Of a DNA stretch of 64,000 bases, positions 19,420 through 32,358 are shown piece after piece. Location: NCBI RefSeq assembly GCF_025574485.1, contig NZ_JAOBPO010000001.1, positions 751,501 to 815,500 of the forward strand. Reading direction: 5' to 3'. Position 1 is the stretch's first letter. Each line of letters opens with the position of its first letter. The stretch is from Kordiimonas aquimaris (GTDB taxonomy: Bacteria; Pseudomonadota; Alphaproteobacteria; Sphingomonadales; Kordiimonadaceae). The notes beneath the pieces are model-generated. The model did not search any database. It saw only the letters and a list, made by a program, of their open reading frames with translations, and was not told the DNA's origin. Made by a program: the position numbers and the translations under genes.

Positions 19420-20454
19420 TCACGAACCCAAGAGGTTATGTTTTTTCAAAGCATGTCGCAATTGATCATAAGTTATGTGAAGCCATTTTGCGGCTGCGCG
19501 CTGGTTATATCGGTTTTGTTCCAGCGCGTGCTTTAGCAATCGTTTTTCGTGTTCCGCCAAAGCAACTTTGAAATTAATCGGTGTATCTGGCAGGCTATCT
19601 TCTTCATAATCAGCATCTTTGCCTGTACCGGTTTGCTCTTCTGTATAGTACTGACGTAAGGCAGCCGGTTTCGGCCGGAAAGGGCTTTCAAATGGATCAA
19701 ACACAAGCCCGCAAACGGCTTGTTCGCCGTCCCATGCGCAGTATATGGCGCGTTCGATGACATTCTTGAGTTCACGGATATTGCCGGGCCAAGCGTGATC
19801 CAGTAATTGCTCTGTTGCCAAATCGGAGAAGCCCGGGAATTGTAGCCATTCTAATTCACGCGCCATTGCCAGACCAAAATGGTTGGCAAGCAGCATAATA
19901 TCTTCAGGCCTGTGGCGCAGTGGCGGCACGGTAATGACATCAAAAGCCAAGCGATCAAGTAAATCATGCCTGAATTGTCCTGCATCAGCAGCAGATGGCA
20001 GATCAATGTTTGTGGCGCCTATTACTCTCGTATCAACATAGATGGTTTCCGTGCCGCCCACGCGTTCAAACTCACCGTATTCTATAACCCGCAACAATTT
20101 TTCCTGCGCGGCCATACTCATTGTGCCAATCTCGTCCAGAAACAAGCTACCTTTGTCGGCGGCTTCAAAGCGCCCTGCACGGCGCCCTTTGGCGCCGGTA
20201 AAGGCACCTTGCTCATAACCAAACAACTCGCTTTCCAGCAGTGTTGGGGTAAGCGCAGCGCAGTTCATTTTTTGAAAGTTATTATCCCAGCGCCGCGATA
20301 GATAGTGGAGGCGGGCAGCGATTAGCTCTTTGCCGGTACCACGTTCGCCGATCACGAGGATAGGGCGATCAAGCGGTGCTGCGCGGCTAACCTTGTCCAT
20401 CAAATCCAGAAACGCTGGTGAAGTGCCGACGATTTGTTCTGATTGATAATTCAT
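19420..20454 (-). CDS. pspF: PspF, sigma54-dependent activator of the phage-shock operon
   Basis: A 344-residue AAA+ enhancer-binding protein without a receiver domain, as usual for PspF. Visible are Walker A GERGTGKE, the sigma54-contacting GAFTGA loop, Walker B SLFLDEIG and a Fis-type C-terminal helix-turn-helix (AAAKWLHITYDQLRHALK). It activates the divergent psp operon from the sigma54 promoter at 20574-20589 and is normally inhibited by PspA binding. ATG 20454 is preferred; TTG 20460 in the same frame is the alternative, and no clear Shine-Dalgarno sequence precedes either. Its start abuts a palindrome, so autoregulation by its own upstream activating sequence is plausible. Confidence 0.93.
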   Translation of the reverse strand: MNYQSEQIVGTSPAFLDLMDKVSRAAPLDRPILVIGERGTGKELIAARLHYLSRRWDNNFQKMNCAALTPTLLESELFGYEQGAFTGAKGRRAGRFEAADKGSLFLDEIGTMSMAAQEKLLRVIEYGEFERVGGTETIYVDTRVIGATNIDLPSAADAGQFRHDLLDRLAFDVITVPPLRHRPEDIMLLANHFGLAMARELEWLQFPGFSDLATEQLLDHAWPGNIRELKNVIERAIYCAWDGEQAVCGLVFDPFESPFRPKPAALRQYYTEEQTGTGKDADYEEDSLPDTPINFKVALAEHEKRLLKHALEQNRYNQRAAAKWLHITYDQLRHALKKHNLLGS

Positions 20455-20464
20455 TGCCAATATA

Positions 20465-20557: not shown

Positions 20558-20573
20558 AATAATTTTAAAAAAC

Positions 20574-20589
20574 TGGCACACCTTCTGCA
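20574..20589 (+). promoter_or_regulatory. Sigma54 (-24/-12) promoter of the psp operon
   Basis: TGGCAC (20574-20579), five bases, then CTGCA (20585-20589) matches the RpoN consensus with the GG and GC dinucleotides correctly spaced. Transcription would start near 20601 and run into the 54-aa ORF, pspA, pspB and pspC. The divergent pspF gene fits exactly. Confidence 0.88.
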
Positions 20590-20656
20590 ATGTTATGGAT
20601 ATCCACCCGCTAAGAGGTGGTTAATACGACAGCAAAACAGGACTAGAGGACACGAC

Positions 20657-20821
20657 ATGAACCAGTTATCACAAATTGCGAGCTTACATGTTTTATCAAG
20701 CGATACGCTGATGAATGTACCAGGTATTTTTTCAGGCCTTGGTGTAACACGCTGTGCTGATGGGCGTATGCCTAGCACGATGCGACGGGAGCGTCGTCGT
20801 AGCCGTAATAACCGGCACTAG
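20657..20821 (+). CDS. Novel 54-aa ORF, first gene of the psp operon
   Basis: ATG at 20657 follows GAGGA at 20646-20650 with a 6-base gap, the best ribosome binding site in the region, and the frame ends at TAG 20819-20821. The peptide starts MNQLSQIASLHVLSSDTLMN, has a hydrophobic, glycine-containing middle (VPGIFSGLGV) with one cysteine, and ends in a very basic tail (MRRERRRSRNNRH). It is the first ORF after the sigma54 promoter, ahead of pspA. I know no family for it. Its placement suggests a stress-induced small protein, perhaps nucleic-acid- or membrane-binding through its tail; a regulatory leader peptide is the other possibility. Confidence 0.55.
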   Translation: MNQLSQIASLHVLSSDTLMNVPGIFSGLGVTRCADGRMPSTMRRERRRSRNNRH

Positions 20822-20981
20822 TCCAACCGGCCCAGGATCGACAGCAAATAAACGACAACACTAATAATAAGCGATCACAAAAGAAGTTAACAAAACTCAA
20901 GAAGGTCGCCCACGGAACTGCCAAAAAATGGCTCATAGAAGCCCGAGGCACGAGCGAGGATTATAAGAAAGGAACATAATA

Positions 20982-21698
20982 ATGGGTATTTTCTCCCGCC
21001 TATCAGACATCGTAAATTCGAATATCAATTCCATTTTGGACAAAGCCGAGGATCCTGAAAAAATTATCCGTATGGTTATTCAGGAAATGGAAGATACCCT
21101 TGTTGAAGTGCGCTCAAGCGCTGCAAAAACAATCGCAGATCAAAAAGATATAACTCGCCGGATTGGCAAACTTGAAAAAGCACAGTCTGATTGGGAAAAG
21201 AAAGCCGAACTGGCGATATCTAAAGGTCGTGATGACTTGGCCAAAGGCGCGTTGGTTGAAAAAGCCAAGGTTGCCGACATGGCAGCACATATGATTGAGG
21301 AAGCCGCTCACCTTGATGAAGCGCTTAAGCGCAATGAAGATGACGTCGTAAAGCTTGAAGCGAAGTTGCGTGAAGCACGTGCGAAAAAGGCCTCATTGCA
21401 GGCAAGACATAATACGGTTTCCAATACTGTGCGCCTGCGTAAAAACCTGAATGATAATCGTATTCAGGATGCTTTTGACCGATTTGATAAAGTGGATGCG
21501 CGCCTTGATCGCCTTGAAGGTGAAGCTGAAGCCATGAACCTTGGCAAGACAGAAACACTTGCCGAAGAAATCACTAACCTTGAAGTGGACGACTCCATCG
21601 AAAAAGAGCTGGAGCAGTTGAAAGCGAAAGCGACTGGCACGGCCAACGATAATAAAAAAGCAGCAGCCAAAGCTAAAGCTAAGACCGCTTCTAAATAG
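20982..21698 (+). CDS. pspA: PspA, phage-shock / IM30-family membrane-stress protein
   Basis: A 238-residue PspA. The N-terminus (MGIFSRLSDIVNSNINSILD followed by KAEDPEKIIRMV) is the typical amphipathic helix that binds stressed membrane, followed by a long coiled-coil core and a Lys/Ala-rich tail. PspA both inhibits PspF and forms ESCRT-III-like scaffolds on damaged inner membrane. AAAGGA at 20969-20973 gives the ribosome binding site. It is followed by pspB and pspC. Confidence 0.96.
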   Translation: MGIFSRLSDIVNSNINSILDKAEDPEKIIRMVIQEMEDTLVEVRSSAAKTIADQKDITRRIGKLEKAQSDWEKKAELAISKGRDDLAKGALVEKAKVADMAAHMIEEAAHLDEALKRNEDDVVKLEAKLREARAKKASLQARHNTVSNTVRLRKNLNDNRIQDAFDRFDKVDARLDRLEGEAEAMNLGKTETLAEEITNLEVDDSIEKELEQLKAKATGTANDNKKAAAKAKAKTASK

Positions 21699-21767: not shown

Positions 21768-21995
21768 ATGGATGTTATACCAATATTACTAACGGTTGTT
21801 GTCGCCCCGTTGTGGATCATTTTTCACTATGTGACCAAATGGAAACAAATGAAGGGTATCACCCCTGAAGATGAAGCGTCACTGGGTGACCTAAGGTCAA
21901 CAGCGGACCGCCTTGAAGACCGTATACGTACAATGGAACGTATTATGGATGACGAAGTTCCAGACTGGAGGAGCAGGCACAATGACAAGTTTTAA
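21768..21995 (+). CDS. pspB: PspB, envelope-stress membrane protein
   Basis: A 75-residue PspB with one N-terminal membrane segment (PILLTVVVAPLWIIFHYVT) and a soluble C-terminal helix (DLRSTADRLEDRIRTMERIM) of leucine-zipper type. PspB and PspC sense membrane stress and draw PspA away from PspF. It lies 69 bp after pspA and its end overlaps pspC by 14 bp, so translation is probably coupled. Confidence 0.9.
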   Translation: MDVIPILLTVVVAPLWIIFHYVTKWKQMKGITPEDEASLGDLRSTADRLEDRIRTMERIMDDEVPDWRSRHNDKF

Positions 21996-22374
21996 GAAAA
22001 GCCCAACCCGCCTTTATAAAAATCCTGTTGATGGAAAATTTATGGGTGTGTGTGCCGGTATCGCCGATTACCTCGGCATCTCTACAACTCCCGTGCGTGT
22101 GCTGACTGTAATTGGTTTCTTTACGCCGCTCAGCTTCTTCATATTTGTTGGTTACTTCATTTTGGGGTTCATGCTCGATCCTGCACCAGTTGACCTTTAT
22201 GAAGACGAACAAGAAGAAGAGTTCTGGAAACAAACCCGCAAGTCACCTGATTATACAGCAGCTGAGCTTCGCCGTCGGTTTCGTGATATCGAACGTCGCA
22301 CTAGTGAAATGGAAGCATACATGACAAGCAAACGCTTTCGCTTAGAGCGCGAGCTCAGAGCACTAGAAGACTAA
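21982..22374 (+). CDS. pspC: PspC-domain membrane protein
   Basis: A 130-residue protein with the PspC domain: RLYKNPVDGKFMGVCAGIADYLG, then hydrophobic VLTVIGFFTPLSFFIFVGYFI. A C-terminal helical region (ELRRRFRDIERRTSEMEAYM) follows. ATG 21982 has GAGGAG shortly upstream; the longer frame from 21913 lies inside pspB and is not used. It is the last gene of the psp operon, before a strong terminator. Confidence 0.93.
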   Translation: MTSFKKSPTRLYKNPVDGKFMGVCAGIADYLGISTTPVRVLTVIGFFTPLSFFIFVGYFILGFMLDPAPVDLYEDEQEEEFWKQTRKSPDYTAAELRRRFRDIERRTSEMEAYMTSKRFRLERELRALED

Positions 22375-29922: not shown

Positions 29923-31239
29923 TTAGTTGTTGAGCGCGCCATCATCGATAGCGAGGATGGTGTGTACCAACACATCTGTTCCTTTTGCCATGGCTTCCGG
30001 TGTGGTGAACTCGTTGGGCGAGTGACTAACGCCGCCAACCGATGGCACAAAGATCATGCCGGTTGGTGCCAAGTGCACCATGTCCTGCGCGTCGTGTCCG
30101 GCTCCCGAGGGCATATGCTTGTATGTATATCCCATTTTCTGCGTGGCATTTTCGATGATTTTGCGCATGCGTGGGTCTGTCGGGGCTGGCTCGGACGCAA
30201 CATCCAGATACTCAAAACCAATCGGTGTCGTGTTTTTAGCTGCGATGGCTTTCGCCGCTTGTTCAACGGCAGCATATACCTGATCAATTTTTTCTTGTTC
30301 AAGATCGCGGATCTCAAGGCTCATGACAACCCGCCCCGGAATAACGTTGGGGGCGCCGGGAAACGCCTGAATACGCCCTACAGTCGCCACTTGCCGGCCT
30401 GGCAGATCGTTGGCGATTTTGTTGATAGCAAGTGTCAGTTCTGCAGCAGACACCATGGCATCACGCCTATTGTTCATCTGAGTTGTGCCGCCGTGGTTGG
30501 CGTATCCTTCAATGGTTACATCCCACCAGCCAATGCCAACAATGCCTTCAACCACACCAATATCGAGGCTTTCCTGATCAAGGAATCCACCTTGCTCAAT
30601 ATGCAGTTCGATAAAAGCTTCATGTGTGCCTGGGGCGACTTGTGCACTAGCGAGGTTATCAGTGTTTCCACCAATAAAGTTGGTGCCATCACCGATGGAG
30701 CGACCACTAGCGTTCACCACATTCAAAGCATCAGGTTTAAGTTTGCCTGTCATTGCAAGCGAGCCAACAAGTCCGCCTTCTTCATTGGAGAAAATAACAA
30801 GCTCAAGCGGGTGCTGCGTTGTGTGACCCGCTTCGTTCAAAAGCTGTATAGCCTCAATTGCTGCCATGACACCTGTCGGGCCATCATAATTGCCACCCCC
30901 AGGTACAGAATCGATATGAGAGCCAAAAAGAATAGGCTTAAGCGTGTTATTGCTGCCGTTACGCCGCGCGATTATATTGGCGGCAGCATCAATGCGCACA
31001 TCCAAATTCAATGCTTCCAATTCAGCTATAATATGAGTACGGCCAGCTTTATCGGCATCCGAATAAGCGACGCGGTCAACGCCGCCATCATCATTTTTAC
31101 CAAATTCACCAAGGGCTTTAATGCGTGCTTCAAGGCGCTCTGCTTTGGCTTTGCCGATGTTCTGGGCAAAGCTGCCAGTGCTTATTGTCAAAATACTAAC
31201 CGCCACAAAAGCAGTGGCGAAAAAACGATTCCAAGACAT
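29923..31239 (-). CDS. Exported M20-family hydrolase (hydantoinase/carbamoylase-type amidase)
   Basis: A 438-residue M20 peptidase-fold enzyme with a signal peptide (MSWNRFFATAFVAVSILTIS...SFAQ). Zinc ligands are visible: H and D in GSHIDSVPGGGNYDGPTG, E-E in FSNEEGG, the later HIEQG and the C-terminal SGAGHDAQ. The GGNYDGPTGV motif is typical of the N-carbamoyl-amino-acid hydrolase / allantoate amidohydrolase branch, so it should cleave a C-N bond of a carbamoyl or related compound in the periplasm. A long open frame on the opposite strand (29854-31389) is a shadow. Confidence 0.9.
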   Translation of the reverse strand: MSWNRFFATAFVAVSILTISTGSFAQNIGKAKAERLEARIKALGEFGKNDDGGVDRVAYSDADKAGRTHIIAELEALNLDVRIDAAANIIARRNGSNNTLKPILFGSHIDSVPGGGNYDGPTGVMAAIEAIQLLNEAGHTTQHPLELVIFSNEEGGLVGSLAMTGKLKPDALNVVNASGRSIGDGTNFIGGNTDNLASAQVAPGTHEAFIELHIEQGGFLDQESLDIGVVEGIVGIGWWDVTIEGYANHGGTTQMNNRRDAMVSAAELTLAINKIANDLPGRQVATVGRIQAFPGAPNVIPGRVVMSLEIRDLEQEKIDQVYAAVEQAAKAIAAKNTTPIGFEYLDVASEPAPTDPRMRKIIENATQKMGYTYKHMPSGAGHDAQDMVHLAPTGMIFVPSVGGVSHSPNEFTTPEAMAKGTDVLVHTILAIDDGALNN

Positions 31240-31668: not shown

Positions 31669-32358
31669 ATGACAAAAGACACTAGATTTTCTAATTGGCA
31701 GCCATGCAAAACACCGGGGGAAACTAATCTTGTCGGCGTGTCCAGTTGCCTTGAACCATATAGTGATGCCGATCATCTAACCGGTTTGTTTGAGGCTGTG
31801 GCGGGGCCCGGCAATGATGACATCTGGCAGTATATGCCGTTGGGCCCATTTGAAAACAGCGAAGCTTTTGCGCAGGCCCTTGCCTATACGCGCCAGCATA
31901 TAGGCTGGAAGACGATGGTGATCAAATGTACAGCCACGCAAACAATAAGAGGTATGGCAAGTTATATGCGGTTGCGCCCAGAGCACGGCAGTGTGGAGGT
32001 TGGGTGTATTGCGTTTGGTAAAAAACTGAAGCGAACATTTGCGGCGACAGAAGCTATGTTTTTGATGATGTGCCACGTTTTTGATGACCTTGGATACCGC
32101 CGTTATGAATGGAAATGCAATAATGCTAACGATGCGTCTAAAAACGCAGCAGTGCGTTTTGGCTTCGTGTTTGAAGGTGTGTTCCGTAATGATATGATTG
32201 TACATGGCGCCAGCCGCGATACGGCGTGGTATTCAATCACGGACGATGAATGGCCAGCTGTAAAAGCCATGTTTCAGGCATGGTTGAAACCTGAAAACTT
32301 TGATCAACATGGCAATCAATTGCAAAAATTATCGACGTTTAAGGTGAGCGAGTATTAG
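31669..32358 (+). CDS. GNAT-family N-acetyltransferase (RimJ/RimL-like)
   Basis: A 229-residue GNAT enzyme of the RimJ/RimL-like group: IRGMASYMRLRPEHGSVEVGCI carries the central strands, EAMFLMMCHVFDDLGYRRYEW the acceptor helix, and KNAAVRFGFVFEGVFRNDM the family's C-terminal GFxxEG motif. It should acetylate an amine on a protein, peptide or small molecule with acetyl-CoA. It follows the DUF1272 gene by 5 bp and its stop overlaps the convergent J-domain gene by 4 bp. Confidence 0.9.
   Translation: MTKDTRFSNWQPCKTPGETNLVGVSSCLEPYSDADHLTGLFEAVAGPGNDDIWQYMPLGPFENSEAFAQALAYTRQHIGWKTMVIKCTATQTIRGMASYMRLRPEHGSVEVGCIAFGKKLKRTFAATEAMFLMMCHVFDDLGYRRYEWKCNNANDASKNAAVRFGFVFEGVFRNDMIVHGASRDTAWYSITDDEWPAVKAMFQAWLKPENFDQHGNQLQKLSTFKVSEY

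Follow-up and report, generated by a model that had tools for sequence, protein, structure and literature searches.

An arginine-rich small-protein gene opening the psp operon of Kordiimonas, in a leader complementary to a predicted sRNA

Between the sigma-54 promoter of the psp operon and pspA, the genome of Kordiimonas aquimaris carries a 54-aa open reading frame (ORF), which raises the question of whether this ORF is a gene and, if so, what its product and the leader around it might contribute to the psp response. We studied it in a window of 64,000 nucleotides, by which we mean the whole stretch of DNA analysed, and in related genomes. The operon is of the PspF/sigma-54 type: pspF and pspABC diverge, a sigma-54 promoter lies between them, and all four gene products score above the cut-off of their NCBIfam equivalog models (Table 1). 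A TGGCA-N6-TGC element precedes the psp leader in nearly all relatives, and GAAAGGA at the pspA ribosome-binding site is conserved among them. By inspection, relatives have a hairpin of other sequence at the position of the 5'-end hairpin, for example GTCAG...CTGAC. The nearest named relatives of the PspA are those of uncultured Kordiimonas, K. laminariae, K. marina, K. gwangyangensis and K. sediminis. The ORF product is MNQLSQIASLHVLSSDTLMNVPGIFSGLGVTRCADGRMPSTMRRERRRSRNNRH. A first-pass annotation had described the ORF as the first gene of the operon, with a GAGGA ribosome-binding site at 6-base spacing and an Arg-rich tail. These points hold: the ORF lies between promoter and pspA, exactly six bases separate GAGGA from the ATG, and the tail is found here and in most homologues. 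The same annotation placed the ORF directly after the promoter; the promoter is indeed upstream, but a gap of about 68 nt intervenes.

Table 1. Features of the psp locus (window coordinates) and two loci elsewhere in the same genome
Feature	Position	Strand	Basis or remark
pspF	19420..20460	-	divergent sigma-54 activator; TIGR02974, E 2.3e-145, exceeds cut-off
sigma-54 (-24/-12) promoter element CTGGCACACCTTCTGCA of psp operon	20573..20589	+	sequence and relatives
leader 5'-end hairpin CCACC...GGTGG	20603..20620	+	sequence inspection
short sRNA-complementary site ACGACAGCAAA, 5' of small-ORF ribosome-binding site	20626..20636	+	predicted
small-ORF ribosome-binding site GAGGA, 6-nt spacing	20646..20650	+	sequence
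small ORF, 54 aa, cistron 1 of psp operon, Arg-rich C-terminal tail	20657..20821	+	sequence and comparison
second sRNA-complementary site GGCCCAGGATCGACAGCA	20829..20846	+	predicted duplex -22.0 kcal/mol
main sRNA-complementary site AGCCCGAGGCACGAGCGAGGATT	20940..20962	+	predicted duplex -35.4 kcal/mol
pspA ribosome-binding site AAAGGA	20968..20973	+	sequence
pspA	20982..21698	+	TIGR02977, E 1.9e-82, exceeds cut-off
pspB	21768..21995	+	TIGR02976, exceeds cut-off
pspC	21982..22374	+	TIGR02978, exceeds cut-off
predicted sRNA gene	~G000:C11:153284-153440 (L230:1476-1632)	-	own genome, upstream of oxyR
Arg-rich ORF, 44 aa	L319:1351-1485 (G000:C21)		own genome, 15 nt ahead of YtrA-like GntR gene; Shine-Dalgarno sequence AGCGAGGAG

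Comparison with relatives argues that the ORF is a gene. When the proteins of 147 genomes of the order were searched, most of the top relatives of the 54-aa product proved to adjoin pspA on its upstream side. In a scan of 70 relatives between pspF and pspA, homologous ORFs turned up in most of family f1 (Kordiimonadaceae) and also in families f2, f6 and f7, mostly 48-63 aa long and most with an Arg-rich tail such as RRQRRRNR. A profile of the small ORF gives one strong match in each genome of these families, located in the psp leader; among 385 genomes of the class its sole strong match is the window's own genome, and the other matches are weak (best E 5.5e-5). Codon comparison of 12 close pairs gave omega values of 0.07-0.34, and across seven independent pairs the differences at codon positions 1, 2 and 3 number 49, 50 and 132, respectively (chi-square p = 1.6e-13). 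The first-pass annotation had named a lack of conservation upstream of pspA in sister species, together with the lack of a ribosome footprint, as what would refute it. In the sequence half of this test, homologues in the same slot were found; the synonymous bias that it suggested checking is likewise present in the omega values and the third-position excess. With these two lines of evidence its main claim, that the ORF encodes a real small protein on the same transcript as pspA, stands at the level of sequence. The annotation proposed the membrane, PspF or RNA as possible targets; it does not cover the sRNA-complementary sites of the leader, the loss of the Arg tail in three genera or the leaders that retain such sites without the ORF, all described below.

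That the ORF is instead a chance reading frame of the leader, yielding no translated product, might be argued from its shortness and its absence from a few close relatives. Since homologues stand at this position in four families, with omega well below 1 and the third-position excess just described, we reject this reading, barring an artefact of alignment, and regard it as having hardly any chance of being correct. The small ORF is nevertheless missing from four relatives (L034, L035, L037 and L067), only a short and divergent version exists in K. laminariae (L039, L040), and in genera g3, g5 and g6 the Arg tail has been lost and the N-terminal part kept, so neither the tail nor the ORF as a whole is essential. 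Together, the comparisons support a genuine, fast-evolving small-protein gene that heads the psp operon in Kordiimonas and in allied families.

Elsewhere, the leading position in the operon is filled differently. In family f5 (L094-L100, L304, L310) it often holds another small protein, whose transmembrane segment is N-terminal (MYNRSFFRSQLGQAAIASIAAM...), and sometimes (L086, L098) a longer protein of about 165 aa. In other Alphaproteobacteria (L285, L286, L287, L300, L301, L302, L313) it is occupied by a different small protein again, whose membrane segment is C-terminal (...ESWLFFLAGIVVGAILG).

The leader that carries the ORF is T-poor on the coding strand, hence U-poor as RNA, and contains recurring motifs. 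Directly 5' of pspA, variants of GCC[C/T]GAG-nn-ACGACAGCGAGGA are common to families f1, f2, f6 and f7. The pattern occurs in these families at about one to two copies per genome (60 genomes searched), against two matches in total for the reversed control. The shorter GACAGCGAA showed no genome-wide enrichment (45 matches versus 47 for its reversed control), for which reason attention moved to the longer motif. With a strict 19-mer pattern that tolerated at most three mismatches, the psp site escaped detection, since it has a 2-base deletion. No Rfam leader element matched the window or seven relatives, and a known element of this kind was rejected as the identity of the leader; folding single pspA-proximal segments revealed no common structure by eye. 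The extra copy of the motif, about one per genome in these families, is the exact reverse complement of part of a short sRNA-like gene, 5' of a Rho-independent terminator. Pairing with an sRNA is our main reading of the motif; alternatively, a protein may bind it.

In the predicted sRNA gene, a sigma-70-like promoter is followed by a hairpin, the invariant stretch UCCUCGCUGUCGUGACUC and a perfect terminator; the gene is present in all 42 genomes analysed. An 18-mer from it was found by exact pattern in 15 of 15 further Kordiimonadaceae, 14 of which are among the 42. Among 367 genomes of the class, an exact 17-mer matched the window's own genome only, with five further matches at one mismatch. 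In the upstream hairpin, nine base pairs are maintained by changes to both partners. In 26 of the 42 genomes the analysed stretch includes an OxyR gene, which lies downstream of the candidate and on its strand, the assignment being to NF008361 at E 5e-69, below the model's cut-off. The candidate aligns at full length to the Rfam models of SorY (E 7e-6) and SorX (E 1e-5), at scores below gathering (36.4 bits versus 111 and 30.6 versus 46.6, respectively), and end to end it reproduces their layout of a hairpin, a CCUC-rich single-stranded stretch and a terminator. One genome holds a second sRNA-like gene copy (L261, G028). From the promoter-like and terminator-like sites, the conservation and the complementarity described below, we predict that the gene encodes a trans-acting sRNA.

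We compared the seed region of each genome's predicted sRNA with that genome's own psp leader, using 100 dinucleotide-shuffled versions of each leader as control. Over the 42 genomes the predicted duplexes average -36.0 kcal/mol versus -24.1 kcal/mol in shuffled leaders; 32 are stronger than all 100 shuffles and 10 are not. The 3' end of the best site lies about 18-27 nt ahead of the pspA ATG in many genomes (about 19 nt for the main site of the window) and farther upstream in others. The counterpart of the short site ACGACAGCAAA is, in most relatives, GACAGCGA/GACAGCAA. Within the window, the main site ranks third among 6394 overlapping 60-nt segments covering both strands of the 64 kb. The two segments with stronger predicted seed pairing than the pspA site are 29933-29964 and 31975-32008. 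In family f2, CCTGAG in the psp sites matches CUCAGG in the f2 sRNA, a concerted difference of one base found in 7 of 7 members and in 2 of 35 genomes elsewhere (Fisher p = 1.3e-6, a value that ignores shared ancestry); this co-variation of site and seed may represent a single evolutionary event. The comparison shows conserved complementarity between the predicted seed and the psp leader, and since conserved leader sites face an invariant seed, an sRNA probably controls the psp operon alongside PspF.

Other matches to the motif fall in the leaders of different operons, several of which start with short Arg-rich ORFs. One of these is a ytr-type operon, whose YtrA-like GntR regulator was present in all 33 genomes searched. 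Among 30 such loci, most leaders combine sRNA-complementary sites with a short Arg-rich ORF ahead of the regulator gene. This ORF, which reads MTTRxYQxxKRxxRRSRR... in Kordiimonas, is unrelated in sequence to the psp small ORF, and its Shine-Dalgarno sequence, usually AGCGAGGAG, is itself complementary to the sRNA seed. By inspection, the next genes of the operon in the window's own genome encode an ABC ATPase and a permease. These features are suggestive of sRNA pairing in the ytr-type leaders as well.

Further leaders with the motif were noted in single genomes. At L247 (G016) a second sigma-54-type promoter is followed by a short ORF that ends in SRRRARFRTRNS and contains the motif, and the motif and short Arg-rich ORFs also occur together in the leaders at L260 (G026) and L268 (G013). 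A further leader, that of an ABC ATPase gene (L235:1501-1600), contains an array of GGGACACGACAGC-like repeats resembling an sRNA sponge, and at L269 a single site precedes a similar gene.

A sponge function has to be considered for the psp leader too: this long RNA might chiefly titrate the sRNA, with the ORF as a secondary passenger. There are several sites per leader, leaders without the small ORF retain theirs, and the GGGACACGACAGC array shows what such an element might look like in another leader. This reading would not account for the purifying selection on the small ORF itself, nor for the position of the best site near the pspA ribosome-binding site in many genomes, as direct regulation predicts, and we consider it quite improbable.

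As to the small protein, profile searches returned no Pfam, NCBIfam or PDB family match. Most members have 6-10 Arg among their last 20 residues and thereby share the short, Arg-rich character of DUF1127 proteins, but the DUF1127 profile (PF06568) matched none of 34 members of the family at E <= 10, and membership is rejected. AlphaFold models the 54-aa protein with helices at residues 4-19 and 40-53, at a low overall pLDDT of 61 and about 80 in the second helix. The N-terminal helix is weakly amphipathic (family mean z 0.49; p = 0.28 for the window's copy), and inspection revealed no transmembrane segment. Mimicry of the amphipathic N-terminal helix of PspA was also considered and is a weak candidate, as amphipathicity is limited to part of the family and does not extend to the window's copy.

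The protein, helical and rich in Arg, might act solely by partnering PspA or the inner membrane, the sRNA sites then being an unrelated layer of control. In keeping with this, the N-terminal part persists in lineages without the Arg tail (omega 0.07 for the tail-less g3 pair), small membrane proteins sit in the same slot in other Alphaproteobacteria, and YjiS of Salmonella, a DUF1127 protein that is likewise 54 aa long and contains an Arg-rich domain, carries a non-polar helix at its N terminus, is associated with the inner membrane and purifies together with PspA (PMC11707872). A function at the protein level only would leave unexplained why the ytr-type operon follows the same plan of sRNA sites plus Arg-rich ORF, and the amphipathicity is weak; on balance we find this reading doubtful, if worth keeping in view. 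Alternatively, the ORF could be a cis-acting leader peptide, slow synthesis of its charged tail controlling leader structure or access of the sRNA to the pspA ribosome-binding site, with no role after release. It does lie ahead of the main gene of the operon, diverges fast, is lost in some species and has an unrelated Arg-rich counterpart in a second operon with sRNA sites. Synonymous positions change freely, however, the tail is dispensable in three genera, and the Arg codons are the common CGT and CGC, for which reason an attenuator based on rare Arg codons is rejected. A cis-acting peptide in general appears unlikely.

The explanation that we favour, at a probability of about 0.55, is that the ORF encodes a genuine stress protein of small size, expressed along with PspA under the control of an sRNA, and that this protein serves as a bipartite adaptor. 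The small ORF would be transcribed as first cistron from the psp promoter driven by PspF and sigma-54, and a trans-encoded SorX/SorY-like sRNA would pair with sites in the long U-poor 5' leader, the main one just 5' of the ribosome-binding site for pspA, a shorter one ahead of that for the small ORF. The most likely effect would be repression of translation, which might be relieved or titrated once sigma-54 floods the cell with leader. The hydrophobic N-terminal helix could dock on the membrane or on PspA and the Arg-rich C-terminal helix could bind RNA or an acidic surface, so that the protein might work both like YjiS and like CcaF1, a DUF1127 protein of Rhodobacter sphaeroides that binds RNA and affects sRNA maturation according to the passage of PMC11707872 that cites it. 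The Arg-rich helix and the recurrence of Arg-rich ORFs with sRNA sites speak for RNA binding; that the N-terminal helix persists without the tail and that YjiS is recovered with PspA speak for a role at the membrane or PspA. We are confident of the gene and of the sRNA as parts of this explanation; the bipartite RNA and membrane function is tentative, at somewhat less than even odds. That the sRNA is transcribed and acts on pspA and on the small ORF is inferred from sequence, as are the direction of its effect and what the protein does. A broader proposal, which we put forward as speculation with the odds against it, is that several envelope-stress operons (psp, the ytr-type GntR/ABC operon and others) share a leader motif through which a single conserved sRNA regulates them jointly. 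Each leader would also encode an unrelated Arg-rich small protein working with the sRNA, for example as RNA chaperone or antagonist, and the RNA-plus-peptide module would have been assembled independently in several operons.

With the small ORF the psp response gains an apparently undescribed family of small proteins, and the predicted direct sRNA control of the operon would tie membrane stress to an sRNA whose gene often neighbours oxyR. The recurrence of sRNA sites and Arg-rich small ORFs in unrelated operons also makes the function of orphan Arg-rich peptides directly testable. Neither of two surveys of psp neighbourhoods (PMC11237479, PMC9239133) refers in its main text to a small protein encoded before pspA, and the open-access literature, subscription journals lying outside our scope, held nothing relevant by title or abstract on Kordiimonas sRNAs or on sRNA control of psp.

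Several known systems resemble parts of this locus. Like PspD, PspG, PspE, PspM/PspN and LiaI, the product is a small or accessory protein encoded with PspA; unlike them, it is encoded ahead of pspA, shows no transmembrane segment by inspection and matches no family. With the DUF1127 proteins YjiS and CcaF1 it shares a length of about 50-70 aa, richness in Arg and a link to stress, whereas its Arg stretch is C-terminal and the DIGL motif was not seen. A short peptide encoded in an operon leader also recalls peTrpL of Sinorhizobium meliloti, which is reported (PMC7298713) to act in trans in ribonucleoprotein complexes; this comparison is by description, and peTrpL, unlike the psp small ORF, is encoded by a transcription attenuator. 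The predicted sRNA resembles SorX, SorY and mmgR (suhB) of Alphaproteobacteria in its hairpin, CCUC-rich single strand and GC-rich terminator. It differs from SorX and SorY, whose targets in Rhodobacter are transporter mRNAs (PMC8307010), in its seed (UCCUCGCUGUCGUGACUC), its frequent position beside oxyR and its predicted targets. Small Arg-rich stress proteins and SorX/SorY-like sRNAs are known kinds, while the psp small-protein family, psp as a target and the combination of the two appear to be new.
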